From: Archaeoglobaceae archaeon | GTDB taxonomy: Archaea; Halobacteriota; Archaeoglobi; Archaeoglobales; Archaeoglobaceae | Length of the DNA stretch: 64,000 nucleotides | Reading direction: 5' to 3' | NCBI GenBank assembly: GCA_038734275.1 | Contig: JAVYOO010000002.1 | Coordinates: 34,911-98,910, forward strand | In this document: positions 28,757 through 43,784 of the stretch, one piece after another | Position numbering within the stretch: the stretch's first letter is position 1 | How the letters are laid out: every line of letters starts with the position of its first letter | Notes under the pieces: model-generated | Databases searched by the model: none | Told to the model about the DNA's origin: nothing | Seen by the model: only the letters and a program-made list of their open reading frames with translations | Translations under genes and position numbers: made by a program

Positions 28757-29401
28757 CTACAAGATATACCCTCCCCCGCCACTCGCAACGATCTTCTCTT
28801 TGGTTCTGAAAACATCGTAAACGTCTTCGTGCCTGTAGACTGCTTTTTCAATGAATTCGCTCACAGTATAAAACTCCACGATGATCTTAGTTCCCATTAT
28901 AACCTTTGGAGATAGATCTCTGACTTCTTCGAACCATTCGAAGCCCTTCGGCTTCCTGCCTATGATCCTATGCAAACTCCAGCTTGCTCCATGCCATAAA
29001 GCTCCAAATTCATAAAGCTCTCTAATTAGAATTGACTTCTGGAGATAAGACTCAGGAGACCCGTCGACTTCGATTACAAACTCAGGATTAACCGCTAATC
29101 TGGGTTTAGGAGTTTTTAGAACGTCATCGAGTTTTTCACATTCACTTAATTCTGCAGAAATGCCCTCTGGAACCGCCCAGACAACACCATTCCCATTGCC
29201 CCCTCTTCTGAAAATGTATCCCACGAGTTCGTAGCCCTCTAAAATTCTCAGCTTATCAAAAAGCCCAAGAATCTTCATTGGACTTAGACTTGATTTCTGC
29301 CAGCCTTCAACTGCTTTTATCTCAGATTGCATATCGCCAATTCTTTTCCTCATTCTTTCCAGCTTACTCGCAGAGAATCTGTAAATTTTACTCGATCCCA
29401 A
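28757..29401 (-). CDS. Unknown protein, last gene of the McrBC-CARF-PIN operon
   Basis: This 214-residue protein is not one I recognise. The N-terminal 50 residues are helical and basic (ASKLERMRKRIGDMQ). Then comes an alpha-beta part with YIFRRGGNGNGVVWAVPEG and LAVNPEFVIEVDG, and a C-terminal part with SLHRIIGRKPKG and ASGGGGYIL at the very end. The start is TTG 29401, since no ATG fits, and it overlaps the PIN gene by 14 bp. This overlap makes it part of the operon. The glycine-rich end and conserved-looking Trp-His-Gly (ALWHGASW) are worth noting. Role inferred only from context: accessory or effector protein of the defence operon. Confidence 0.6.
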   Translation of the reverse strand: MGSSKIYRFSASKLERMRKRIGDMQSEIKAVEGWQKSSLSPMKILGLFDKLRILEGYELVGYIFRRGGNGNGVVWAVPEGISAELSECEKLDDVLKTPKPRLAVNPEFVIEVDGSPESYLQKSILIRELYEFGALWHGASWSLHRIIGRKPKGFEWFEEVRDLSPKVIMGTKIIVEFYTVSEFIEKAVYRHEDVYDVFRTKEKIVASGGGGYIL

Positions 29402-30380
29402 GCGACATCAACCTCCTGCATATTCTTAAATTCTTATCAAAGCTTTTCCAGAGCTCATCATCCAGAAATCTCAGCTTGAACTCGTCTATACTGTTCTTTC
29501 CCTTGAATTCGCCAAATATGACAACGCTGTTGAGTCTGATAACACCGAAAATCATTGCGAGGTTGTAGATCAGTCTTTGCATTGAATGATGACTGCAGAA
29601 GTTAGCTTCGATGGCATGAGGGAAGTTGAATAAAAAGTGTTCCAGACCCTCAGCATTGCAAAGATCTGCCATCTGTCTGTCCGCAGTTAACAGCGAGGGC
29701 ATTAAGTTCCTTTCTTTCTCGAATCTTCGGAGAGTTTTTACAATTATTATGTCATTTCGCTCCTTATCACTCGTAGAGTGTTCTATTCCTTCTATCTCAA
29801 CAGCGAACTTTCTTAGCTCTCTATACTCTTCAACAGCAATGCAAGCAATTCTCGACTTTTTCATTCTCCTGTTAACAAACTCGTCCAGTAAAAAGTTCTG
29901 ATATTTTGCCTCCTTTTTAAGTTCAGCTATTTGCTGTGGCGAATACTTGAAGTTGAGCATAGATTCTATTTCTTCTCGCACAGTGTCCACAAGCAAAACC
30001 TTTCTCGGATCAGTTCCAGAATTACTCAAAAAACGATGGTAAAGGACATTGGTGTCTGGAGAGAAAAGAATGGTCTTTGTAAGGTTCATATAAGCCTTTA
30101 ATTTCTCTTTGAATGCATCGTAATTTTTGTAGTTGATTATGCCCGCAGAAATTAAACATTGCATGAAGTCCTCATACGATGGCATCTCAGCTGAAGAGAA
30201 GTGAGACTGCTGTTCTTCGAAATCCGCAATTCCTTGCAAAATCTTGAGCCTGTAGCCATTTACCTCCTGCTTAGCGGTGAATAGGTCGAAATGCTTGTAG
30301 AGTGGATACATGACGCTGATCTCGTCAACTTGGTTGAGCAGTATTTGAAGCTCTTTGGCTGAAATAACCGCTTCATTCAT
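29388..30380 (-). CDS. PIN-domain predicted RNase
   Basis: This 330-residue protein has a helical N-terminal part (about 105 residues) and a PIN domain. Acidic residues fit the PIN site: SPDTNVLYHRF (first Asp), VREEIESML (Glu), KERNDIIIVKTL (Asp) and LLTADRQMADLC (Asp). PIN proteins are metal-dependent RNases. It overlaps the CARF gene before it by four bases. A stand-alone PIN protein of this size directly downstream of a CARF protein suggests a sensor-effector pair, with the two domains split over two genes. The C-terminal 80 residues are helical and unrecognised. Confidence 0.75.
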   Translation of the reverse strand: MNEAVISAKELQILLNQVDEISVMYPLYKHFDLFTAKQEVNGYRLKILQGIADFEEQQSHFSSAEMPSYEDFMQCLISAGIINYKNYDAFKEKLKAYMNLTKTILFSPDTNVLYHRFLSNSGTDPRKVLLVDTVREEIESMLNFKYSPQQIAELKKEAKYQNFLLDEFVNRRMKKSRIACIAVEEYRELRKFAVEIEGIEHSTSDKERNDIIIVKTLRRFEKERNLMPSLLTADRQMADLCNAEGLEHFLFNFPHAIEANFCSHHSMQRLIYNLAMIFGVIRLNSVVIFGEFKGKNSIDEFKLRFLDDELWKSFDKNLRICRRLMSLGIE

Positions 30381-30862
30381 TTTTTCACCTTCATAGCTTC
30401 TTCCATAAAGTCTCTGAGCTGTTGCTGAGCCAGTGGGATCATCATGTATGGCATTGGCAACAGTTCTTTGACCGCAAGGTAGAAAACATGATCAAGTCTA
30501 AGCTTCATAGCAGGAATGAGTGCAGCAGAAACAAGAGGTTTCCTTCCAGGGGTTATATCAATTGCAATTCTGAATTCCTGTTCCTTAAGCCTTTTTATTA
30601 GCTCTATCATCTTTTCTGCAGCTGTAACAAAGTCGTTGTCCCCTAAGATTGTGTATTCTATTCTTGGATTAAAGCCAAACTCCTCGCTCAGGACTTTTAG
30701 CCCTTCTGCTACGTTATCAATCCCCTTGGAATAAGATTCCTCCGCGAAGATCTGGATTAAGTCAGGATAATAGGATTTCAAACTCAGAACTGCGTAGTAA
30801 GTGTTTACAACCGCCCAACCGGATCTGCCAAGGAGTGTTATGTATGCTTTCTTCTCACTCAT
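30377..30862 (-). CDS. Stand-alone CARF-domain protein
   Basis: This protein of about 161 residues has a Rossmann-like CARF fold: the strand AYITLLGRSGWAVVNTYYAVL at the start, a helix-rich middle, and the late motif IAIDITPGRKPLVSAALIPA, close to the (D)xTxGxKxM/P loop that binds cyclic oligoadenylate in CARF proteins. Length covers one CARF domain only, so it must dimerise and act through a partner. I start it at ATG 30862 because the near-identical fragment at 36017 starts exactly there (MGEKRAYITLLG); the frame extends six codons upstream. It sits 20 bp after mcrC and overlaps the PIN gene by four bases. Confidence 0.75.
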   Translation of the reverse strand: MSEKKAYITLLGRSGWAVVNTYYAVLSLKSYYPDLIQIFAEESYSKGIDNVAEGLKVLSEEFGFNPRIEYTILGDNDFVTAAEKMIELIKRLKEQEFRIAIDITPGRKPLVSAALIPAMKLRLDHVFYLAVKELLPMPYMMIPLAQQQLRDFMEEAMKVKK

Positions 30863-30882
30863 CATTTTGCCTATGTTCATCG

Positions 30883-32190
30883 TTATAAATTAAATTTTTT
30901 GTTATTAAGCAGGCATTTGAGCATTTCTTCCAATTTAGAAACAAAATCCTCCCATTTTTCGATCAAATCATCTTGCAGTGGTAGAGTCTTGACGAAGAGC
31001 TTTATGTTTCCATCTTTGCCCACGAGAAAAGGCTTTTCCAGAATTTCTTCGCTTATCGGATTCAAACCTTCAGGATAGATCAGGAGAGCCTTATTTGCTC
31101 CAAGCTCCCTGCAATAGGCGTAGATCTGGTATAGATCCTGCTGGTCTATACCAAGCTTTCGAGCTTCGGGATCGAGGAGTTTGTATTTCGTGTCGATGAT
31201 TATTTTCTCAGTCCCGATCTCGATAACGATGTCGGGCTTCATTTGTGCAATTATATGTCCATTTTTCTGCAGAAAAGCTCCCTTCGACTTTTGAATCTCG
31301 AGTTTTGCATTTTCACCAAAAACTTCGTAGAGCCTCTCCTTTCTGATCACTCCAGCCACGAACTGTTCAAAAAGCCGTTCCATTGGAATTAATATGGAGA
31401 AGGATTCCACCTTCGAAGCTTGAAGTGTAAGGCTTGAATGCTCGAGAAACACTCTACAGAATTCGATGAATGGTTTGAATTCGATGTTTAGCCTGTTAAA
31501 TGTAATGCTTTCGATTTGTTGAACCGATACTGGGGCTAAAGCCACAGGCTCCAATATATCGGTAATCCGTCTCAGCTTTCTGTAGGTTTCTCGAGTTTCA
31601 ACGACCTTTGACATCAAAAAGCACGTGTATTTCAGCGTTCTGTTTATTAAATTGTCAAGATGTCTCTCGTAAAATTCACAGGGAACCAAATGAAGCCTTG
31701 CAGGGTTGCAGTGCTTTTTAAAATCGATCTTTCCTCTAACGTATCTCATTTCATCATATCTGCGGACGTATTGGAAGTTCTGCTTTGTCTTCAGCAAATT
31801 CAACAGATTTCTGGCAAAGATCTCGATGAGAATTTCAAAAAAGTCATTTATCTCGGAAAGTTCCGCATAATCCACTTCTCTGAAATCGAGTAAAGTAAAC
31901 TCAAGCATCTTCAACAGATTTCCTGCGATCATCTCTTTTCTGTCTTCTGAAGCGAATTTTGGGAATATTTCGAGCGTTATTTTTCCTGCTTTGACAACTC
32001 CAACGTAATTTAGCGGTTTAATCCTCTTCCTACCTATTTCAAGAAATTTATTCTTTTCGTTAATCTTTTCGAGCTGTTCTATTGTCTTTTCAGTCAGCAT
32101 CAATCTGTCCCCTTCAATATCATCTCTTCCGCCGATCTCGTATTCAACGGGCTTATACTCGAAGAGCGTCACTTTAGCCAACGCTCTCAC
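30883..32190 (-). CDS. mcrC: McrC-like restriction nuclease subunit
   Basis: This 435-residue protein has the McrC layout: an N-terminal beta-rich half with NYVGVVKAGKITLEIFPK, a helical middle, and a PD-(D/E)xK core with Asp320 in KPDIVIEI, then Asp333 and Lys335 in IIDTKYK. This is the DNA-cleaving subunit of McrBC type IV restriction, activated by McrB. The start is GTG 32190, inside the mcrB 3' end (17-bp overlap); GTG 32172 is an alternative. The catalytic residues are intact. Confidence 0.9.
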   Translation of the reverse strand: MRALAKVTLFEYKPVEYEIGGRDDIEGDRLMLTEKTIEQLEKINEKNKFLEIGRKRIKPLNYVGVVKAGKITLEIFPKFASEDRKEMIAGNLLKMLEFTLLDFREVDYAELSEINDFFEILIEIFARNLLNLLKTKQNFQYVRRYDEMRYVRGKIDFKKHCNPARLHLVPCEFYERHLDNLINRTLKYTCFLMSKVVETRETYRKLRRITDILEPVALAPVSVQQIESITFNRLNIEFKPFIEFCRVFLEHSSLTLQASKVESFSILIPMERLFEQFVAGVIRKERLYEVFGENAKLEIQKSKGAFLQKNGHIIAQMKPDIVIEIGTEKIIIDTKYKLLDPEARKLGIDQQDLYQIYAYCRELGANKALLIYPEGLNPISEEILEKPFLVGKDGNIKLFVKTLPLQDDLIEKWEDFVSKLEEMLKCLLNNKKFNL

Positions 32191-34278
32191 CAGCTAAATT
32201 TTCCAATTCTTTAAGGAAATCCTCGTCAGAGAAGTTCTTCTTTATTTCATAGGAATTGCCGTCTTTTTCCAAGATTACGAAGTTTCCAGCGACTTCTTTC
32301 AGCTTTTCTGGGCTGTCGTAGAAATACTCTTGTAGCAGAGGAATAATCTCATAATACCAGATCTCCTTTAGAATCCTAATAGCTTCTTCCTTCGAATTGC
32401 ATTTCTCAAGCCTGAGGAAGTAGCTATGCCCTATCTGGTGGTCTCTGTCGTAAAGCTGTTTGATTTTTTCGTTCATAGATTTGAGAACCTCGATTGTGAG
32501 CTTTTTAACTTCTTTTGCGGAATCTTCACCAGATAAGAGTCTCTTTTCAAGAAGCTCATAGTCTGGCATGAGCTCAATGAAGCCAAATCTTCTTCGCAGT
32601 GCAACGTCTATTAAGGCAATGCTCCTGTCTGCGGTGTTCATAGTTGCTATGATGTAGAGATTTGGTGGAACTCCAAACTTCTCTTTGGAGTATGGCAAAG
32701 TAACAATGCTCTCGTTCTCTGCAGAAAGTCTTTTGTCCGCTTCGAGCAAAGTTATAAGTTCGCCAAAGATCTTGGAGATGTCTCCTCTGTTTATCTCGTC
32801 AATGAGTAGATAGAATTCTGGAGCTTCTGAAAAAAGTTTTATCACATCTTCCTTGTTCATTTTCTCAATTTTCCCCCAAAGCGATTTTTTCAACTCAGAG
32901 TATCTTTCCCTGCTCAACGAATCACCATTAGCGAGATATTCCATTATTTCAGATGCGAGAGCTTTCAGGTCTTCGAATTTCGAATTTAGAATAGCCATGC
33001 AGATTGCCTTTAAGGCACTCTTTTTGAAAATACCATCCTCAACGAAGTATCTCACTTGCTCATTTTCCGAAATGACTCTGATACCTTCGACAAACTCTTC
33101 ATAGGAATAGCTCGGATGGAATGTGACCATGTCAAATCTCGAAATCTCCAATTCTTCTGTGCTGTCACTTTTGATCTGGAGGTTTTCTGATATATAATCC
33201 TCGCTTAATCCAGACTCTTTGGCTAACCTATAAGCTTCTTCAACACTGAGATCTATAAGCCTTACACCCGCTTTTTGTCTTCCATGGATTATTTCATTCA
33301 TTCTATCACGATCAACGCCCTCAAAGACCTTCTTGATCTTTACATATCCTTTATCTTCTTCTTTTCGTATTCCCCTATCGCAAAAACTCTTCCATAGGGA
33401 TGTCCGATATAAATGAAAACAACATCCCCATTTTCTATTTTTTCATAGGCTGTTCTGTATTTCCCCTCAAGAATTTCGTAACTTTCATTTTCTCTGAGTT
33501 CTTTGGGGTTCAAATTGGATGGTTTTACAGCATAAATGAAGTAACCGATTTCCGACTTTTTAATTGGTATTTCGAGCTTTTTTTCTTTACCTGCGATGTA
33601 TCTGTGTGCGAGCCATGTTTTGCCTGTGCCCGGCGGACCATACAGAATGACCTGCTTTTTGTTATTCAAAATATTTTCGAGCTGTTCTTTTATTGTAGAA
33701 TCGATTAAAGTTTTCTCTTCTGATTTAATTTCGGGGTTCAGAACTTGGTTAATTATTTTTTTAAGCCCTGGGCTTTTTTCAACTTCTTCCCACTCCAATT
33801 CACCTATCGTAGCAATCAGTCTCTTTGGAGACTCTAAACTTAAGTCTGTCCGAATCCACTCCACAGCTCTAAAGGTGGGATAATCAGGATCCGTTCCAAA
33901 ATCGAATTGAGGGTCAGATCTGACAATTCCAATTCCTATAATTTTATTCGAACCCTTCATAGCCAGCAAGATGTCCCCTTTGGATATTTCCCTTAGAAAT
34001 TTCCATAATCTGCTTGGATCTCGGAAACTATCTTTGCCTTGACCAGCTCTCCTGAACTCTTCGTTAAATTTATCTCTGTCATATTTTAATATAGCTTCTT
34101 CTCCGAGAGCTTTCACGACTCTTGCCCAGCCTACTCGAATACGCCCCTCTCTTACGCAATCTTCCCAGAGTTCTGCCCCCTCCCCGGGTTTAATTAACCA
34201 TATCTTTGGTCTTTTGTTCTCTGTTACCTCTGTTTTGGGCTCAGAATTTCCTTCTTTAGTCTCAACTTCAAATCCCAT
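32174..34278 (-). pseudogene. mcrB: McrB-like AAA+ GTPase with EVE-like domains, frameshift at 33353-33366
   Basis: Two frames form one protein of about 700 residues. The first (34278-33340) has an EVE/PUA-like domain at about residues 25-150 (WLIKPGEGAELWED, then GDILLAMKGSNKIIGIGIV), Walker [14 protein letters not shown] at about 212-224, and then a second EVE-like stretch (YEKIENGDVVFIYIG, RVFAIGEYEKK). It stops at 33340. One base missing in the A-rich run at 33353-33366 restores EEDKGYVKIKKVFEGV and leads into the second frame (to 32174): FHPSYSYEEFVEGI, Walker B LLIDEINRGDISKIFGEL, ATMNTADRS and ALRRRFGF. It would recognise modified DNA and drive McrC. ATG 34278 follows GGTGGGAGGT. The break may be slippage, decay or sequence error. 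Confidence 0.8.
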
Positions 34279-34385
34279 ACCTCCCACCTACATTTATCAT
34301 AGATAAAATTTTTGAAACTTCGAAATGCATGCCAAGCAAGAACTTCACTTTTTATTTTAAAAAGCTAAACTCTGATTCGAAATAG

Positions 34386-34405
34386 AACTTAACCGCTGGA
34401 TAAAT
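34386..34405. repeat. 20-bp copy of part of the glutamine amidotransferase gene
   Basis: Bases 34386-34405 are identical to 37471-37490 inside the class II amidotransferase gene, and the similarity fades over the next 15-20 bases. It lies in the otherwise empty 287-bp gap (34279-34565) between mcrB and the next gene. It looks like the scar of a duplicated or rearranged segment. Confidence 0.5.
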
Positions 34406-34489
34406 CCCTTAAATCTCCCCAATTTGTATCTATTTTAATAGAATAAACAAATAAAATTTTTTCCTATCCCCATTCATACTCAAAGAAAA

Positions 34490-35210: not shown

Positions 35211-35432
35211 ATGAACTACATCACAGTGTCTGCGAAAGTCAGGAAGGAGCTCGTGGAGAGAGCGAAAAAATTGGGTATCAATGTGAGCGAAGTCATAAGA
35301 GGAGCTCTTGAAGAAGAAGTTAAAAAGAGAGAAATGGAGTGGGCAAAGACAAAGATTGAAGAAATCGCTTCAAAAGCCAAGCTTGAAAAGCCTTCAGAGC
35401 AAGTTATTAGGGAGTTTAGGGATAAAAGATGA
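35211..35432 (+). CDS. vapB: VapB-type antitoxin
   Basis: This 73-residue protein has a ribbon-helix-helix N-terminus (ITVSAKVRKELVERAKKLGINVSEVIRGAL) and a charged C-terminal tail that would bind the toxin. A TATA box (aaatatata, about 35180-35188) lies about 27 nt before the ATG, so the mRNA is likely leaderless. The last codons overlap the toxin ATG by four bases, typical for vapBC. Confidence 0.85.
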   Translation: MNYITVSAKVRKELVERAKKLGINVSEVIRGALEEEVKKREMEWAKTKIEEIASKAKLEKPSEQVIREFRDKR

Positions 35433-35827
35433 TTGTCCTTGACGCAAGCGCCGCTGTAAAGTGGTTTTTGAGAGAGAAAGAAAGCGAGGAGATGAAACTA
35501 TTGCTGGAGAAGATAATTTCCAAAGAATTCGAAGTGCACGTTCCAGAGCTTTTGTTTTTGGAAGTTGCAAACGTCTTAAGATATGCCAAGCTGAGCGAAG
35601 AAGATGTCATTGAAGGCATAAAAGCTTTGATGATACTTGATTTCTCAGTTCATGGCTTTAAAGAGCTTTTTGAAGACGCTGTTGAGATTGCCTTTGAGAA
35701 AGGGCTAACGATTTACGATTCTGTCTATTTAGCATTATCCATGAAGCTTGGAGCAGTGCTTGTAACTTATGATAGCATTCTTCTAAAATTTGGAGGAAAG
35801 AAAGCGTCGGATTTGATTCGACTGTGA
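35429..35827 (+). CDS. vapC: VapC-type PIN toxin
   Basis: This 132-residue PIN protein has the full acidic set: MIVLDASAAVKWFL (Asp5), ELLFLEVANVL (Glu), TIYDSVYLALS (Asp) and LVTYDSILL (Asp). It is a metal-dependent RNase toxin controlled by VapB and usually cuts tRNA or rRNA. The gene seems intact. Its 3' end lies 18 bp from a fragment of the CARF gene. Confidence 0.88.
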   Translation: MIVLDASAAVKWFLREKESEEMKLLLEKIISKEFEVHVPELLFLEVANVLRYAKLSEEDVIEGIKALMILDFSVHGFKELFEDAVEIAFEKGLTIYDSVYLALSMKLGAVLVTYDSILLKFGGKKASDLIRL

Positions 35828-35845: not shown

Positions 35846-36017
35846 GGACTTTTAGCTCTTCCGCTACGTTATCAGTCCCCTTGGAATAAGATTCCTCCGC
35901 GAAGATCTGGATTAAGTCAGGATAATAGGATTTCAAACTCAGAACTGCGTAGTAAGTGTTTACAACCGCCCAACCAGATCTGCCAAGGAGTGTTATGTAT
36001 GCTCTTTTTTCTCCCAT
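35846..36017 (-). pseudogene. Truncated copy of the operon CARF gene
   Basis: Bases 35846-36003 align without gaps to 30691-30848 at a constant offset of 5155, with only about four differences in 158 bp. The fragment holds the first 50-plus codons of the CARF protein from ATG 36017 (MGEKRAYITLLGRSGWAVVN) and is cut off at the vapC 3' end. It lacks the ligand-loop half, so it cannot make a working CARF domain. The high identity means recent duplication or ongoing gene conversion. Confidence 0.85.
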
Positions 36018-36035
36018 AACACTATAAGCTCAATT

Positions 36036-36120
36036 TTAAAACTTAAATTTTTGTTCAGGTGTTCTGGTTATACAGCTTAGCGTTTCTTTCAGTTCAGAAA
36101 CAAAAGCACCGCAATCTTTG
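36036..36120 (-). pseudogene. Possible remnant of a second mcrC 3' end
   Basis: The minus-strand frame ending at 36036 reads AFVSELKETLSC then KFKF and stop. The real McrC ends DFVSKLEEMLKC then KFNL and stop. Both lie just before the CARF start, so order and distance match the mcrC-CARF junction. The match is short, and I give it modest weight. Confidence 0.35.
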
Positions 36121-36418: not shown

Positions 36419-36697
36419 CTATTTTCGGGTCTTCTTTCTCTTCTTTTTCTTCGGTCCCTCTAAAAATTCCAACACCTTTTCCATATACTCCGCCACAACA
36501 TTGCCTTTTCTGTCATACACCAAAATAAAACAACCTGATGGAACTTTCGGTTTCAATTTATTCAACACCGACTCGACATCCTCCATTTTCACTTCAAACA
36601 ATTTCACGCCTGCATCATCCAAAGGTTCCCATGTATCAACCATAACAACACTGCAATCCAATTCTTTCGGTAATAGATGCTCAAATTTCTTAATCAT
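36419..36697 (-). CDS. Small unknown protein with lysine-rich tail
   Basis: This 92-residue protein is alpha-beta in look: ELDCSVVMVDTWEPLDDAGV, a helix with EDVESVLNKLKP, a strand CFILVYDRKGNVVAEY, and a tail rich in Lys and Arg (GPKKKKRKK). The basic end suggests nucleic acid binding. It follows the next gene upstream by 13 bp and has a GGAGTGTGAG site before the ATG. Base use is like its partner. I do not recognise it. Confidence 0.55.
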   Translation of the reverse strand: MIKKFEHLLPKELDCSVVMVDTWEPLDDAGVKLFEVKMEDVESVLNKLKPKVPSGCFILVYDRKGNVVAEYMEKVLEFLEGPKKKKRKKTRK

Positions 36698-36710: not shown

Positions 36711-37046
36711 TCACAACCATACTTTTCCTCGCATCTTACTCTTAAATTTATCCACTTTCTTTAAATCCTCTTTGTATAGCTCAGGATAATCTCTATTCAA
36801 TTTAACCGCTCTCTCTACTAATTCCTTAATCTCATCATATTTTTTCAATTTTTTCAAATCATTCAACAACATAAAAAATCCGTTTTCATCCCTGTATACC
36901 TTCGCACCTAAAAACAAACCAACACTTGCCAATGTATCCGACATCGAAACATATACTTTCTCCTCATCTGTTTTCAACTCCTCTGCTTCTGCAAATCTTT
37001 CCATTACCCTCAACCATTCCATCATATACTTCGCATAATTAACCAT
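36711..37046 (-). CDS. Small unknown helical protein
   Basis: This 111-residue protein is largely helical with a TPR-like look (YMMEWLRVMERFAEAEELK, then LKKLKKYDEIKELVERAVKL). A strong GGTGG ribosome site stands before ATG 37046, and the shared 26-nt promoter element lies 57 bp upstream. It heads a two-gene unit with the lysine-rich protein. Because the promoter element also serves the CARF-winged-helix operon, the pair may belong to the same regulon. Function unknown. Confidence 0.6.
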   Translation of the reverse strand: MVNYAKYMMEWLRVMERFAEAEELKTDEEKVYVSMSDTLASVGLFLGAKVYRDENGFFMLLNDLKKLKKYDEIKELVERAVKLNRDYPELYKEDLKKVDKFKSKMRGKVWL

Positions 37047-37102
37047 ATTTTACCACCTCACACCCCATACTCTCCACCCCACAATAGAATGTTGTATAAC
37101 TT

Positions 37103-37128
37103 ATACTTAAATTTTTCTATCAATTGAA
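37103..37128 (-). promoter_or_regulatory. Shared 26-nt promoter element, copy 1
   Basis: The 26 bases here are identical to 41192-41217. On the minus strand they contain a CAATTG palindrome, then an A-rich stretch and a TATA-like TTTAAGTA. They drive the small gene pair that starts at 37046, with a leader of about 35 nt. Confidence 0.6.
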
Positions 37129-37214
37129 CTAAAAATTAAAATGTGATGTCTCCACTCAAAGCCGAAGAGCTTTTCATTAACATTTCATCTTCAAAAATTT
37201 AGCTTCACAATCCC

Positions 37215-37919
37215 TTATTCCCTTAAGCAAATCTCTTTGCTCACAACAAATAACTCTCCGTTGATCAAGCAAATAATTCTGTTCTTAGGAATCGGAACCC
37301 ATCTTTCGTCGGTGAGTTTCTGAGTTGAAATCAAAATCGCTCCACCGTAGTCTTTTTCCCTTCTTAGCATGAACATGTTTCGGTGGTTGCAGAAGGCAAA
37401 CAGAGCATTACCATCGGTTAGTAAATAGTTTAGGGTTCCATTGTAGCTTTCAAGTAATGTCTTGGTTGCCAACTTAACCGCTGGATAAATTCCCCTGAAT
37501 CTACTTCTTCTCAGATATTCAACAATTTTGTCGATCATGAAAGAGAAAGCCATAGCGGAGTCAGTATTACTTTCAACTTTGCTCGGGTAGTTTATCGGTA
37601 GATCGCCGTTGTGGGCGAATAGCCAGTCTCTGTTGAGAAATCCAAAACGAAACGGGTGGCAGTTTTTCTCACAGACTTCACCTCTTGTTGCAAGTCTCAA
37701 GTGCGCCAATATCACATTGCTTCTCGCATTTTCTACTGCTTTTCTGAAAATCTCGCTTGAGTTCGGATCTTTTGTAGATTTTTTGACCACCGCTTTGCCA
37801 TCTTCGTAGTATCCGATTCCCCATCCATGCCAGTAACGGGTATGATACCTTGCAAACAACGGAAGGCTAAAAGTCCCCCTATCTTTACTGTTACAGCTTA
37901 AAGCGAAAAGCTCACACAT
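37215..37919 (-). CDS. Class II glutamine amidotransferase
   Basis: This 234-residue protein starts with Met-Cys2-Glu, where the Cys becomes the N-terminal nucleophile. It shows HGWGIGYYEDG, ILAHLRLATRG, CHPF and WLFAHNGDL, all features of YafJ-type class II amidotransferases. No synthase domain is fused, so the acceptor of the ammonia is unknown. It lies 30 bp after the RNase J-like gene in the same direction and is probably the last gene of the CARF-winged-helix operon. Confidence 0.85.
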   Translation of the reverse strand: MCELFALSCNSKDRGTFSLPLFARYHTRYWHGWGIGYYEDGKAVVKKSTKDPNSSEIFRKAVENARSNVILAHLRLATRGEVCEKNCHPFRFGFLNRDWLFAHNGDLPINYPSKVESNTDSAMAFSFMIDKIVEYLRRSRFRGIYPAVKLATKTLLESYNGTLNYLLTDGNALFAFCNHRNMFMLRREKDYGGAILISTQKLTDERWVPIPKNRIICLINGELFVVSKEICLRE

Positions 37920-37949
37920 AACCTAAACCCCCAGACAACAAAAATTAGC

Positions 37950-39485
37950 TCATCCACATTTGAAGCTTTCTCCATTACCCATAACCTTCACGTTTTCAAA
38001 ATTCTCAACAAACCATTCTGCATTCTCAGTGTGCACAGGAATCAGCACTTCAGGATCGATCCTCTCAATGATCCATCTCAGATCCTCTTTCGACGCATGT
38101 CCAGAAGCGTGATAGCCCTTAACGAACTCTGGCTTCAGTTTACCACCCTCGTTGATGATTTCAAAGCCAAAAATCTCGAAATTGAAGGTTTTGAGCCAGT
38201 TTTGAAGCCTTAGAAAATCAAATTCTTGTTCTTCACTGTGGGCTTCGCTGGAAGAGTAAATGTAAATGCCCCCACTGGGCTTTATGTCGAGGAGATGCTT
38301 CATATCGTAGAAGGAGAAGCAGAGAATGTAGCTTTCGGGATCTCTGTTTATCTCCACAGGATCGACATAAGCGTTCTCCCAACTCTTCATCACAACTTCA
38401 GTTTCCCATTTGTCTCTCTTTTCTTTTAGCTCTTTATAGATCCCAACTCCTTCCATTCTGCAAATGCGATCCGTTAATTCCAGGGCTTGCAGCATGTAAG
38501 CGTCTTTGGCTGTGACCACGAGTTGTCTTCCTGTTTTATCCGCTATTTCTTTGAACATCTCAAGTCTTTCGATGTTCCTCGGGGAGAAGTCGGCTATAAC
38601 CAAACCCTTAGCATGCTCAACCGCTTTAAGACAGTTCTCGAAAACCTCCTTTTCCGTAACGTTGTAATCTCCCCTTCCCGCTCTCGTGCCCTCTACGATG
38701 AGAACACTTGCATTCTTCGCCTCGCTCACAAACCTCTTTGTTTCACTCTCTTTTCTACCATGGAGCCTTATGTCGCCTGTGTATGCGATCGCAATGTTGC
38801 CATAGAGAATGTAGCCCAGAGAACCGTAGACAGAATGATCGACCTCGAAAGCTTTGATCTCGAAGGAGAGATCTTTTTCTTCAAGACAGCAAATATTTCC
38901 CGCTTCAATTCCTTTCCCAGATTCCTGACCTGGGCGGTAGCATAGAAATTCTTCGAGGTCTTTATTTATTTCTCCTGTGCAAACAAGGTTTCTGCCCAAG
39001 TAAGGCTGTTTTTTGCTCTGGATAGCCATTAGAACCCTTTTGTCTTCGCAACGCTCTCTAAGTGAGTAGTAAGGGATTTCGCTACCCCCTGTTTGCTTTC
39101 CAGAATCTCTCATAGCTTTTAGAACTGCAAGTGATGCTGGAGAAGCAACGATTGGAATGCTTTCTTGAAGATAAGCGACGTTGCCAAAGTGATCAAGATG
39201 TGCATGGCTTATAAGCACTGCTTCAACATTTAACTTCGGATAGGATGAAAGATCGACGTCTGAAGGGATCAGATCGCTCCTATAAACGTTAAGCCTTGGA
39301 ATCAGCCCTAAATGAAGGGGATCATGGATCCCCCTCACGTTTCTTTCCCTTAGAAACTCCTCAAAGTATTTGCTGTGCCTTGCAAAGTTCATTCCAAAGT
39401 CGAGAAAAACACCTCTGCCATTTTCTTCAACGTAGATCTTGTTTCCTCCAATCGTGTCAGCACCGTCGAAGATCGTTATTTTCAT
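37950..39485 (-). CDS. RNase J-like metallo-beta-lactamase nuclease
   Basis: This 511-residue protein has an MBL core with HAHLDH at 94-99, later metal-binding IAYTGDIRLHG, and a beta-CASP-like insertion. Near the end come YHASGHAS and LIPVHTENAEWF, which match the RNase J motifs at the same place. Family members degrade RNA from the 5' end or cut inside it. It overlaps rmuC by four bases. The N-terminal loop has an unusual long stretch (residues 35-80) before the first metal motif. RNA as substrate is inferred from the family. Confidence 0.8.
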   Translation of the reverse strand: MKITIFDGADTIGGNKIYVEENGRGVFLDFGMNFARHSKYFEEFLRERNVRGIHDPLHLGLIPRLNVYRSDLIPSDVDLSSYPKLNVEAVLISHAHLDHFGNVAYLQESIPIVASPASLAVLKAMRDSGKQTGGSEIPYYSLRERCEDKRVLMAIQSKKQPYLGRNLVCTGEINKDLEEFLCYRPGQESGKGIEAGNICCLEEKDLSFEIKAFEVDHSVYGSLGYILYGNIAIAYTGDIRLHGRKESETKRFVSEAKNASVLIVEGTRAGRGDYNVTEKEVFENCLKAVEHAKGLVIADFSPRNIERLEMFKEIADKTGRQLVVTAKDAYMLQALELTDRICRMEGVGIYKELKEKRDKWETEVVMKSWENAYVDPVEINRDPESYILCFSFYDMKHLLDIKPSGGIYIYSSSEAHSEEQEFDFLRLQNWLKTFNFEIFGFEIINEGGKLKPEFVKGYHASGHASKEDLRWIIERIDPEVLIPVHTENAEWFVENFENVKVMGNGESFKCG

Positions 39486-40486
39486 TTTCTCTCCTCCAAG
39501 TCCCGTAGACTGCTCAAATTAGAGTAAAAGGCTCTTAAATTGTTAAATGATTTCTGAACCTTTGGAACATTGTTGCTTGCGTTGGTCACGTGCCTGAGCA
39601 GAGTTTCTAGATTTCCTTCGAAGTCTTCTAAGTGCCTTCCGAGTTCATCTATGCTCCGCTGAATTCTCTCCGCACTTTTCGAGATATCCTCAGCCCTTAT
39701 TTTAGCAGAAATTAAATTCAGATAAGCGGGCAGAATGGAAGGAGACGTGAGAATAACTCCCGCTTTTGAAGCTTCAACTGCAATTTCGGGAGATTCCGAG
39801 ATTATTCTGTAATAAATCGCATTTGACGGAATGAACATGAATGCAAAGTCCATCGTATTTTCCTTTCCGACGTATTTCGATCTTATGCTCTCCACGTGTC
39901 TTTCCAAATCATTAAGAAACATCTTCCAAAGCTTATCCTTATCTTCAGCCTTTTCAGCTTCGCAAAATTTCCTGAAGTTCTCAAGCGGAAACTTTGAGTC
40001 GATGCAGAGAAATCTGTTTTCTTCGACAAGAACGCACGCATCCGGAATGCCGGGGCCTATATTCTCCTGAAACTTTAGTCTTTGCACTGGAAACAGATCT
40101 CTGAGCAGATTTTCAAGCTGTAGCTCACCAAACTTCGCTCTCGAGCTTTTGATCTCGAACATCGACTTCAAATCGGATGTTATGTTTTTCAGGTCGTTTG
40201 AAGCTTCTCTCAGCTTTCCCATATCTTCTTGAATTCCAAGCTCTTTAAGTGAAGTCGCAAAGGCTCCTTTGATTGCTTCGGTGTTCTTTGCAAGGGCTGA
40301 AGCAAAAAGACTCTCGAAAATGCTCGCTGAATTCTGTATCGTTCTTACTACTGAGTTTTCAACCATCTGTTGCACGCTTTTTTCGAGATTTGTCAGCCTT
40401 TTATTCAGCTCTTCCGTTTTGTCCTTGTAGCTGTAAAGCAGAAAAAGCAGTAGAAGTGTGAATGCAAAGATCAGATATTCTATCAC
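39482..40486 (-). CDS. rmuC: RmuC family nuclease-like protein
   Basis: This 334-residue protein has an N-terminal transmembrane helix (YLIFAFTLLLLFLLYS), a long coiled coil to about residue 110 and an RmuC domain with PDACVLV and FLCIDSKFPLENF, the PD-(D/E)xK-like core. RmuC proteins limit rearrangements at inverted repeats and are predicted DNA nucleases at the membrane. Four-base overlaps tie it to the CARF-winged-helix gene on one side and the MBL gene on the other. Confidence 0.88.
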   Translation of the reverse strand: MIEYLIFAFTLLLLFLLYSYKDKTEELNKRLTNLEKSVQQMVENSVVRTIQNSASIFESLFASALAKNTEAIKGAFATSLKELGIQEDMGKLREASNDLKNITSDLKSMFEIKSSRAKFGELQLENLLRDLFPVQRLKFQENIGPGIPDACVLVEENRFLCIDSKFPLENFRKFCEAEKAEDKDKLWKMFLNDLERHVESIRSKYVGKENTMDFAFMFIPSNAIYYRIISESPEIAVEASKAGVILTSPSILPAYLNLISAKIRAEDISKSAERIQRSIDELGRHLEDFEGNLETLLRHVTNASNNVPKVQKSFNNLRAFYSNLSSLRDLEERK

Positions 40487-41172
40487 GATCTCACCTCAAC
40501 GAGAATTTTTCCAAGATCTGTTAGGACGATTCTAACATTTCTCCCGACTTTCTCTCTTTTGAGTAATCCTTGAGTTTCGAGTTTTGAAATCAAATGGCTT
40601 AGCCTCGATCTTTCGCTGAAGAAAATCCTTGAATTCCTGTCTATGCTCGGATTTAGCTTCAGGATCAGCTCATCGAGTGAATTGACGCCACTCTCAATCG
40701 TTGATAAAACTCTGAATTGCTCTTCGCTGGGAAAATCGATCGGAAGTGTTGGAATCTCGATGATCTGCTCAACTCCTATCTCCTCGAAGTTCTCATCGTA
40801 TTTTGGAATTGAAGTAAATATTTTGCAATTTGCAACACAACCAGCTATGTAGCCCGCTATGGCAAGGGTGCGAAGCGAGCCCGAGGCGTTAATAACTACT
40901 TCTCTTCCCGAAGCCTTTTCAGCCCTTATGATCCTGAGAAGTTGCATCACCGCCCTTATAACGTCTCTCTTGTTTATCTCTTGTATTTCAACTTCAAAAT
41001 TTATTTTAAGTTCATTTCTCAGCTCTTCTGCAACTCTCCTTACTCTCTCCTCGCCAGAAATGTCCTCTTCGCCGACAAAAAGGATGATCTTGTTTACTGT
41101 TAAATTCAATGCGTTTATTGATTCCAGAAGTCTTTCTTTGTGGTGTCCGACGAAGACAAGTTGGGTTTTCAT
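40483..41172 (-). CDS. CARF-winged-helix protein, Csa3-like regulator
   Basis: This 229-residue protein has a CARF domain in the first 130 residues (TQLVFVGHHKERLLESI, VVINASGSLRTLAIAGYIAGC) and a winged-helix domain at about 165-228 (LSHLISKLETQGLLKREKVGRNVRIVLTDLGK). This is the layout of Csa3, the cyclic oligoadenylate-responsive regulator of archaeal CRISPR genes, but no cas gene or CRISPR array is in the window. ATG 41172 lies about 24 nt from the TATA-like TTTAAGTA, so the mRNA is likely leaderless; five codons of upstream frame are not needed. It probably controls its own operon and perhaps the 37046 gene pair. Confidence 0.8.
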   Translation of the reverse strand: MKTQLVFVGHHKERLLESINALNLTVNKIILFVGEEDISGEERVRRVAEELRNELKINFEVEIQEINKRDVIRAVMQLLRIIRAEKASGREVVINASGSLRTLAIAGYIAGCVANCKIFTSIPKYDENFEEIGVEQIIEIPTLPIDFPSEEQFRVLSTIESGVNSLDELILKLNPSIDRNSRIFFSERSRLSHLISKLETQGLLKREKVGRNVRIVLTDLGKILVEVRS

Positions 41173-41191
41173 AATACCAGATCGCAAGCTA

Positions 41192-41217
41192 ATACTTAAA
41201 TTTTTCTATCAATTGAA
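41192..41217 (-). promoter_or_regulatory. Shared 26-nt promoter element, copy 2
   Basis: This copy is identical to 37103-37128. It includes the TATA box of the CARF-winged-helix operon and, just upstream of it, a CAATTG palindrome within TTCAATTGATAG that could be an operator for the regulator encoded next to it. Confidence 0.6.
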
Positions 41218-41229
41218 ATAAAGTGTTAT

Positions 41230-43088: not shown

Positions 43089-43784
43089 TCAAGGGTATCG
43101 AGTACTGCGTTCTCCGTGCTGACTTTCTTGTAGAATTTGAAGAATTTTTAAGATATCTTCTGGCTTATCAGCTACAAAATCCGCATCACCAGCATAGGAG
43201 ATAAAAGTTGCACCATAAGAAGCGAAAATTGTGATCATTCCGATTCTTTTACCAGCAGTAATATCTCTCCGAATGCTATCGCCAACGAGAACAGCTTCTT
43301 CAACTTTGACGCCAAGTTTTTCAAGGGCTAAGAGAATTGAATCTGGCTCAGGCTTCCGCTTTCCGCTCATGTCCGCAGAAACAATGGCATCGAAATAATT
43401 TTCCAGATTGAACTTTTTCAGCCTTGAAATTGCCTTGCCGTTCTCTGCATCGGTAACAACAGCAAGCTTAAAACCGAGCTCTTTAAGTCTTTTTAGAACT
43501 TCCTCAATTCCCGGGTAAACTCGAATTCTTTCAAGCTTGGTCTTCTCGTAAACTTCACAGCATTGCAAGAATAGCTCCTGGCTAAAGACACCATGATCTC
43601 GAAGAAAGTCTGCAATGTTTTCGTAGTGTTCGAAGCCATGTTTTCCTCTAAGAAAGTAGTTCAAAAGTTCTTCTGCAGAACCTCGCTGAGCTAATTTGAC
43701 CACTTCCTCGCATGCCTTAAGCTTTGCAGGAATAAAATCCACAAGCGTGTCATCGAGATCGAAGATCACTGCTTTTATTTTCAT
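43089..43784 (-). CDS. HAD-family phosphatase
   Basis: This 231-residue HAD hydrolase has motif I DLDDTLVD at 9-16, motif II VVTDAEN, Lys in KRKPEPDSI and motif IV VGDSIRRDITAGKRIGM. The cap is of the small helical type. The closest fit is a group of archaeal phosphatases near phosphoglycolate or glyceraldehyde-3-phosphate phosphatases, with the substrate unknown. The last 14 residues (SQHGERSTRYP) look like a tail added by chance. Confidence 0.85.
   Translation of the reverse strand: MKIKAVIFDLDDTLVDFIPAKLKACEEVVKLAQRGSAEELLNYFLRGKHGFEHYENIADFLRDHGVFSQELFLQCCEVYEKTKLERIRVYPGIEEVLKRLKELGFKLAVVTDAENGKAISRLKKFNLENYFDAIVSADMSGKRKPEPDSILLALEKLGVKVEEAVLVGDSIRRDITAGKRIGMITIFASYGATFISYAGDADFVADKPEDILKILQILQESQHGERSTRYP

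Follow-up and report, generated by a model that had tools for sequence, protein, structure and literature searches.

The regulators closest in fold to the one considered here are Csa3a and Csa3b of the Sulfolobales, which likewise combine a CARF domain with a winged helix; in Sulfolobus, overexpression of Csa3b raised nurA-rad50-mre11-herA (PMC7480081). CoCoNuT superoperons, a form of type IV restriction, are headed by a CARF regulator followed by stacked nuclease and restriction genes and were proposed to start layered defence (PMC11090510). The Shield (ShdA) antiphage system has an RmuC domain as its effector, a membrane-anchored defence nuclease (PMC10270631). We analyzed a stretch of 64,000 nucleotides (the window) of contig JAVYOO010000002.1, part of the 1.73-Mb genome of an Archaeoglobaceae archaeon, which contains a four-gene operon headed by a CARF-winged-helix gene. 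The operon is probably the core of a defence nuclease regulon, shared with many related heat-loving archaea and under a CARF repressor that a ligand would relieve. Its genes were as follows.

40483-41172, minus strand: CARF-winged-helix regulator (Csa3-like, PADLOC CARF3 clade), 229 aa, with an SGSLR loop and ERSRLSH; from profiles, homologues and a structural model
39482-40486, minus strand: RmuC-family protein, 334 aa; from a profile match and alignment
37950-39485, minus strand: RNase-J-like beta-CASP metallo-beta-lactamase (MBL), 511 aa; from profile, alignment and fold search
37215-37919, minus strand: class-II glutamine amidotransferase, a stand-alone domain (YafJ/EgtC-like) with Cys2 as nucleophile, accessory member; from profiles

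The four genes share one strand, with two 4-nt overlaps followed by a 30-nt gap, exactly as a sequence-only reading of this DNA had described. Gene calls were mechanical; for the CARF gene, ATG at 41172 was preferred over the mechanical TTG at 41187 because the homologues and the spacing from TATA box to start favoured it. The amidotransferase matched GATase_4 (PF13230, E=9e-39).

The first protein matched HFX_2341_N and the DUF6293_C winged helix in the profile search, and the PADLOC CARF3 model PDLC01862 with E=3e-97. PDB sequence searches with the protein or its profile gave nothing significant, but the fold search with its AlphaFold model (mean pLDDT 90) yielded Csa3 as the top PDB match (E=2e-9), namely 2wte and 6wxq, the latter solved with cA4. 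These matches bore out the earlier assignment of the first domain as CARF, and the modelled Rossmann-like CARF fold places the protein in the CARF superfamily. Its relatives with names were nearly all from Archaeoglobales. Among 22 homologues (45-93% identical), both the N-x-SGSLR ligand loop and the ERSRLSH segment of the winged helix were nearly invariant, and hence ligand binding has probably been retained.

The protein differs from Csa3a and Csa3b in belonging to another clade. Its score with the NCBIfam Csa3 model TIGR01884 was 47.8 bits, below the cut-off of 60.2. It does not lie in a CRISPR-cas locus, as Csa3 does: no Cas gene was found among the scanned window neighbours or recognised in the relatives' loci, although not every locus received a full cas scan. 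A regulator of this type would control its own nuclease island via a defined operator, unlinked to Cas10. The operon resembles the CoCoNuTs in having a CARF regulator at the head of a nuclease stack. However, CoCoNuT CARF proteins are RtcR-like (CARF-ATPase-HTH), whereas the protein in the window has a winged helix without an ATPase domain, and the system is archaeal with a core of RmuC and the RNase-J-like enzyme. Judged from the CARF protein alone, the system is therefore not a CoCoNuT.

The MBL protein contains beta-lactamase and RMMBL domains, and its HAHLDH motif, H217, D238, H459, H463 and H485 were conserved in the alignment. With a model of moderate quality (pLDDT 73), the best Foldseek match was 2az4, followed by RNase J structures, indicating a beta-CASP MBL fold with catalytic motifs. 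The earlier label "RNase J-like enzyme" thus stood for fold and motifs, but the protein is not RNase J proper, as it scored 80.2 bits against the 400-bit cut-off of the RNase J family (TIGR00649) and 61 against 820 for RnjA. The second protein belongs to PF02646 (E=4e-50) and the PD-(D/E)XK nucleases: it has an N-terminal hydrophobic helix, a coiled coil and a PD-(D/E)XK core, in which PD149...D163-S-K165 was invariant across 11 sequences. Because active-site residues were conserved in both enzymes, catalysis has likely been retained.

MBL was present in 23 of the 57 genomes of the order. Carriers of the CARF clade, defined by a score above 366 bits, largely coincided with these (19 genomes with both genes, 4 with CARF only, 4 with MBL only and 30 with neither; p=8e-8). 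Gene order, whose absence everywhere would have counted against the earlier reading, was conserved: in 16 of the 21 informative loci the CARF gene preceded MBL on its strand, and in one the CARF gene was divergent. RmuC was immediately upstream of MBL in 12 loci, preceded in three (L055, L063 and L069) by a GIY-YIG open reading frame (ORF), and the CARF gene directly adjoined MBL in L049, L052, L053, L070 and L016. NurA-HerA formed an operon divergent from CARF in L016. McrBC directly followed MBL in six loci (L052-L055, L058 and L065). The L054 locus, in which NurA-HerA-Mre11-Rad50 lies between CARF and MBL, reads CARF-NurA-HerA-Mre11-Rad50-MBL-TPR-GAT-McrB-McrC, GAT being the amidotransferase.

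Five methanogen loci (L102, L109, L110, L113 and L116) showed the order MBL-CARF-PIN, usually followed by HAD, and in four of them a CARF-winged-helix gene with 42-49% identity adjoined this set. The same operator as described below was not seen upstream of the methanogen CARF gene. In L102, L109 and L113, an ARPP-1 type protein (Pfam match in L102 and L113) stands between the CARF-winged-helix gene and MBL. The ARPP-1 family was proposed to act on ADP-ribose (PMC9503650), and this neighbour may be a hint at the ligand.

The window holds a 34-nt repeat (at 41189 and at 37100) that led to the promoters of relatives, where an operator-promoter was found: TAGTTGA-[AAAAATTTAAGTAT]-N10-ATCAACTA, an inverted repeat flanking a TATA box. 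The consensus of 17 CARF promoters was A-TTGAACAAAAAATTTAAGTATTAT-AAATC-ATCAA-TATT. The inverted arms, TAGTTGA and TCAACTA, surround the BRE/TATA box, and the start codon typically lies 3-12 nt after the right arm. Searching 55 genomes with TTGANNNAAAAATTTAAGTAT-N10-ATCAACT, with at most 3 mismatches, yielded 55 sites in 22 genomes; the reversed control gave 1 site, and a pattern with N11, one base too long, gave 0. Positions outside the search pattern were conserved too. Sites and the CARF clade occurred in the same genomes (20 with both, 3 with CARF only, 2 with a site only and 30 with neither; p=7e-10). The exceptions included the window's own genome, with an eroded right arm, G006, whose contig ends at the CARF start, G019, whose site has 4 mismatches, and G023, where the gene behind the site is a decayed CARF gene of the kind seen in CARF-PIN pairs. 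G014, G025 and G026 are single-contig genomes, and in each of them the sites all lay in a span of 11-13 kb (chance by a naive estimate 8e-5, 1e-6 and 1e-6, respectively). In G000, G014, G025 and G026 the left arm plus box (at most 1 mismatch) was confined to the locus, and four genomes lacking the CARF clade had none; this distribution indicates that it is not a generic promoter.

The CARF gene itself follows 20 of the 55 sites. Of the remaining 35, 28 stand before nuclease genes, CARF-PIN genes or relics of either kind. The genes behind all 35 were RmuC (6), the CARF gene of a CARF-PIN pair (5), PIN (1), decayed CARF genes (2), Mrr-like PD-(D/E)XK genes or remnants (8), GIY-YIG (4), NurA (1), a PIWI protein (1), FtsZ-like proteins (2), a 346-aa family without assignment (2) and a helicase operon (1), with no gene assigned for 2. 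The operator and the multi-operon regulon go beyond what the sequence-only reading had proposed.

Some observations concern these sites. The PIWI-like protein (570 aa, L170:2870-4582) has a weak match (E=4e-4) and lies behind an operator with 3 mismatches, in a genome with two copies of the CARF gene. Divergent FtsZ/tubulin-like proteins recur in the island (L048:3548-4426, L171, L057:10851-11408 and L059:8252-9298); one is fused to a DSP-type phosphatase and two have the operator. A GC-rich conserved hairpin (CAGGCAGGTTTGCCTGGCCCCGACAACCTGCCTG) lies after or near the operator in three genomes (L051 near 14305, L125 and L167). It had no Rfam match in L167 and is possibly an RNA element; an Rfam scan of the window returned only a tRNA.

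Two copies and one eroded remnant were recognised in the window.

41189-41222, minus strand: operator-promoter of the operon (TTCAATTGATAGAAAAATTTAAGTAT), with left arm and TATA box kept and right arm eroded
37100-37133, minus strand: second copy of the box, before the TPR gene, with a partial right arm (ACAAC)
36041-36057, minus strand: eroded operator (TGAACAAAAATTTAAGT) before a relic CARF gene

The TTCAATTGATAGAAAAATTTAAGTAT variant occurred only twice in this genome, before the operon and, 4 kb away, before the TPR gene (37046). Recent duplication was disfavoured as the origin of the 34-nt repeat, as the TPR copy is also found in G051 and the flanks differ.

These data suggest the following model, in which a Csa3-like CARF-winged-helix factor would control a regulon of nuclease genes. 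Its winged helices would bind TAGTTGA ... TCAACTA, covering the promoter region between roughly 40 nt upstream and the start codon, and in the resting cell the protein would repress its own gene together with the nuclease operons. A nucleotide ligand that builds up in infection or DNA damage would make the protein leave its sites. RmuC and the RNase-J-like enzyme would then be made jointly, in relatives along with Mrr-like, GIY-YIG, NurA-HerA-Mre11-Rad50, McrBC and CARF-PIN nucleases, and would break down the DNA and RNA of invaders. What the sequences show directly are the gene families, the conserved gene order, the operator held in common and its confinement to genomes and loci with the CARF clade; from these we infer binding of the operator by the CARF protein, repression, relief by ligand and a purpose in defence. 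Provided that the protein binds the operator, repression relieved by ligand appears the likelier direction of control, since the arms flank the TATA box and reach the start codon, suggesting occlusion of TBP/TFB and the polymerase. The earlier proposal of a CARF-regulated nuclease module outside CRISPR is accordingly strengthened as regards conserved order and operator, with regulation by CARF as the presumed part.

Several points weigh against this model. Because CARF promoters served to derive the motif, only the sites at other genes and the genome-level tests are independent. Many of the genomes are metagenome bins. Both the window's own genome and its nearest relative have an eroded right arm of the operator, and control in these two may therefore be weaker or altered. 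No recognisable operator copy was found at the McrBC-CARF-PIN operon of the window. Activation instead of repression is a possible alternative direction of control. Finally, rmuC is dispensable, because the nearest relative (G052, 93% identical; L003/L048) has lost most of it, with about the last 100 nt left, yet keeps CARF and MBL intact. In this respect the operon also differs from Shield, which has no CARF regulator, as RmuC here is just one dispensable member.

A purpose in DNA repair was the alternative that survived best, though we regard it as unlikely. The CARF protein would then sense a damage-derived nucleotide and induce end-processing and junction-resolving enzymes, consistent with RmuC and NurA-HerA-Mre11-Rad50 being repair-type proteins and with the effect of Csa3b on a repair operon in Sulfolobus (PMC7480081). 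However, the patchy distribution (23 of 57 genomes), frequent decay, and association with McrBC, CARF-PIN, Mrr-like and GIY-YIG genes and one PIWI gene fit defence islands better. The two purposes could coexist.

The operon might also belong to type III CRISPR signalling as a normal Csa3-type branch, in which cyclic oligoadenylate made by Cas10 binds the CARF-winged-helix protein and turns on the nucleases. The structural match to Csa3 with cA4, two Cas10-like proteins with intact GGDD in the window's own genome, and CARF-PIN effectors in the same island would agree with this. Nevertheless, Cas10 was found in 10 of the 23 carriers and 11 of the 34 non-carriers (p=0.42), and the system therefore appears independent of type III CRISPR. 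Because Cas10 was undetected in the other 13 carriers, including the single-contig G014 and G026, the earlier idea of cyclic oligoadenylate from type III CRISPR as the general signal was rejected. With the Csa3 score below cut-off as well, this explanation seems improbable, and the ligand need not come from Cas10. The SMODS domain (PF18144) of CBASS-type synthases was not above cut-off in ten carriers, a search that did not extend to other synthases.

It is similarly improbable that the box is a strong promoter travelling with gene cassettes, with the CARF protein a local autoregulator or acting elsewhere: its core does hold a TATA box and the sites cluster near each other, but the arms, the N10 spacing and the extra positions are conserved though TBP/TFB need neither arms nor spacing, the left arm plus box is missing from four genomes that lack the CARF gene, and genes as unlike as RmuC, Mrr-like and GIY-YIG bear it.

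Returning to the presumed ligand-relieved CARF regulon, further genes of the window were assigned to its surroundings.

43089-43784, minus strand: HAD phosphatase, with relatives at the end of the methanogen MBL-CARF-PIN-HAD operon
36711-37046, minus strand: small TPR-like protein, 111 aa, a putative regulon member
36419-36697, minus strand: 92-aa protein, no family assigned, downstream of the TPR gene
35847-36020, minus strand: relic copy, 58 aa and 91% identical, of the CARF-PIN pair's CARF gene
33340-34287, minus strand: N-terminal EVE/P-loop part of McrB, a separate ORF (fused to McrB in L052)
32174-33301, minus strand: McrB-like GTPase part
30883-32190, minus strand: McrC-like nuclease subunit
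30377-30880, minus strand: stand-alone CARF protein, forming the first half of a CARF-PIN effector (CARF_m1) split over two genes
29388-30380, minus strand: PIN-domain nuclease, forming the second half of that effector

The last two adjacent genes match the halves of PDLC01973 and together form a CARF-PIN effector. They have the same two domains as the PADLOC CARF_m1 effectors but are split into two genes, located after McrBC in the window or after the RNase-J-like gene in methanogens. As this pair behind McrBC and the HAD gene belong to the same recurrent set, the 29-44 kb region of the window represents a recurrent island in a dispersed form. The relic CARF gene carries an eroded box, a sign that the same operator may once have controlled the CARF-PIN pair here. 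The earlier proposal of a link to the McrBC-CARF operon was supported by relatives, which have McrBC after MBL and the operator at CARF-PIN; as the window copy has no recognisable operator, a shared signal there would rest on these relatives and the eroded box.

Some further features of this region were noted. Positions 30691-30862 and 35846-36017 are a 172-nt duplicate (95%), the truncated CARF copy adjoining a PIN-domain gene (35429-35827). McrB occupies two ORFs (32174-34287), with the EVE/P-loop ORF, a second EVE-like stretch after Walker A and then the remainder, and is one protein of 746 aa in L052; a frameshift, an insertion or a genuine split may account for the two ORFs. A 32-nt match (91%) between 34386-34416, upstream of EVE-McrBC, and 37471-37502, in the amidotransferase coding sequence, may have been left by an ancestral GAT-McrBC junction like that of L054.

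More tentatively, the system may represent an archaeal, CRISPR-independent immune regulon with one CARF-winged-helix switch that would release several DNA and RNA nucleases together, one operator, interchangeable targets, and a nucleotide signal that comes neither from Cas10 nor from a known CBASS-type synthase. For many of the CARF-winged-helix proteins on record, neither targets nor ligand are listed; in the present case, the operator and about 12 types of target gene are readable from sequence, which opens the DNA target, the direction of control and the ligand to direct test. If the signal is indeed not made by Cas10, the finding would point to a new archaeal alarm nucleotide, and to inducible stacked nucleases as a widespread layer of immunity in archaea.
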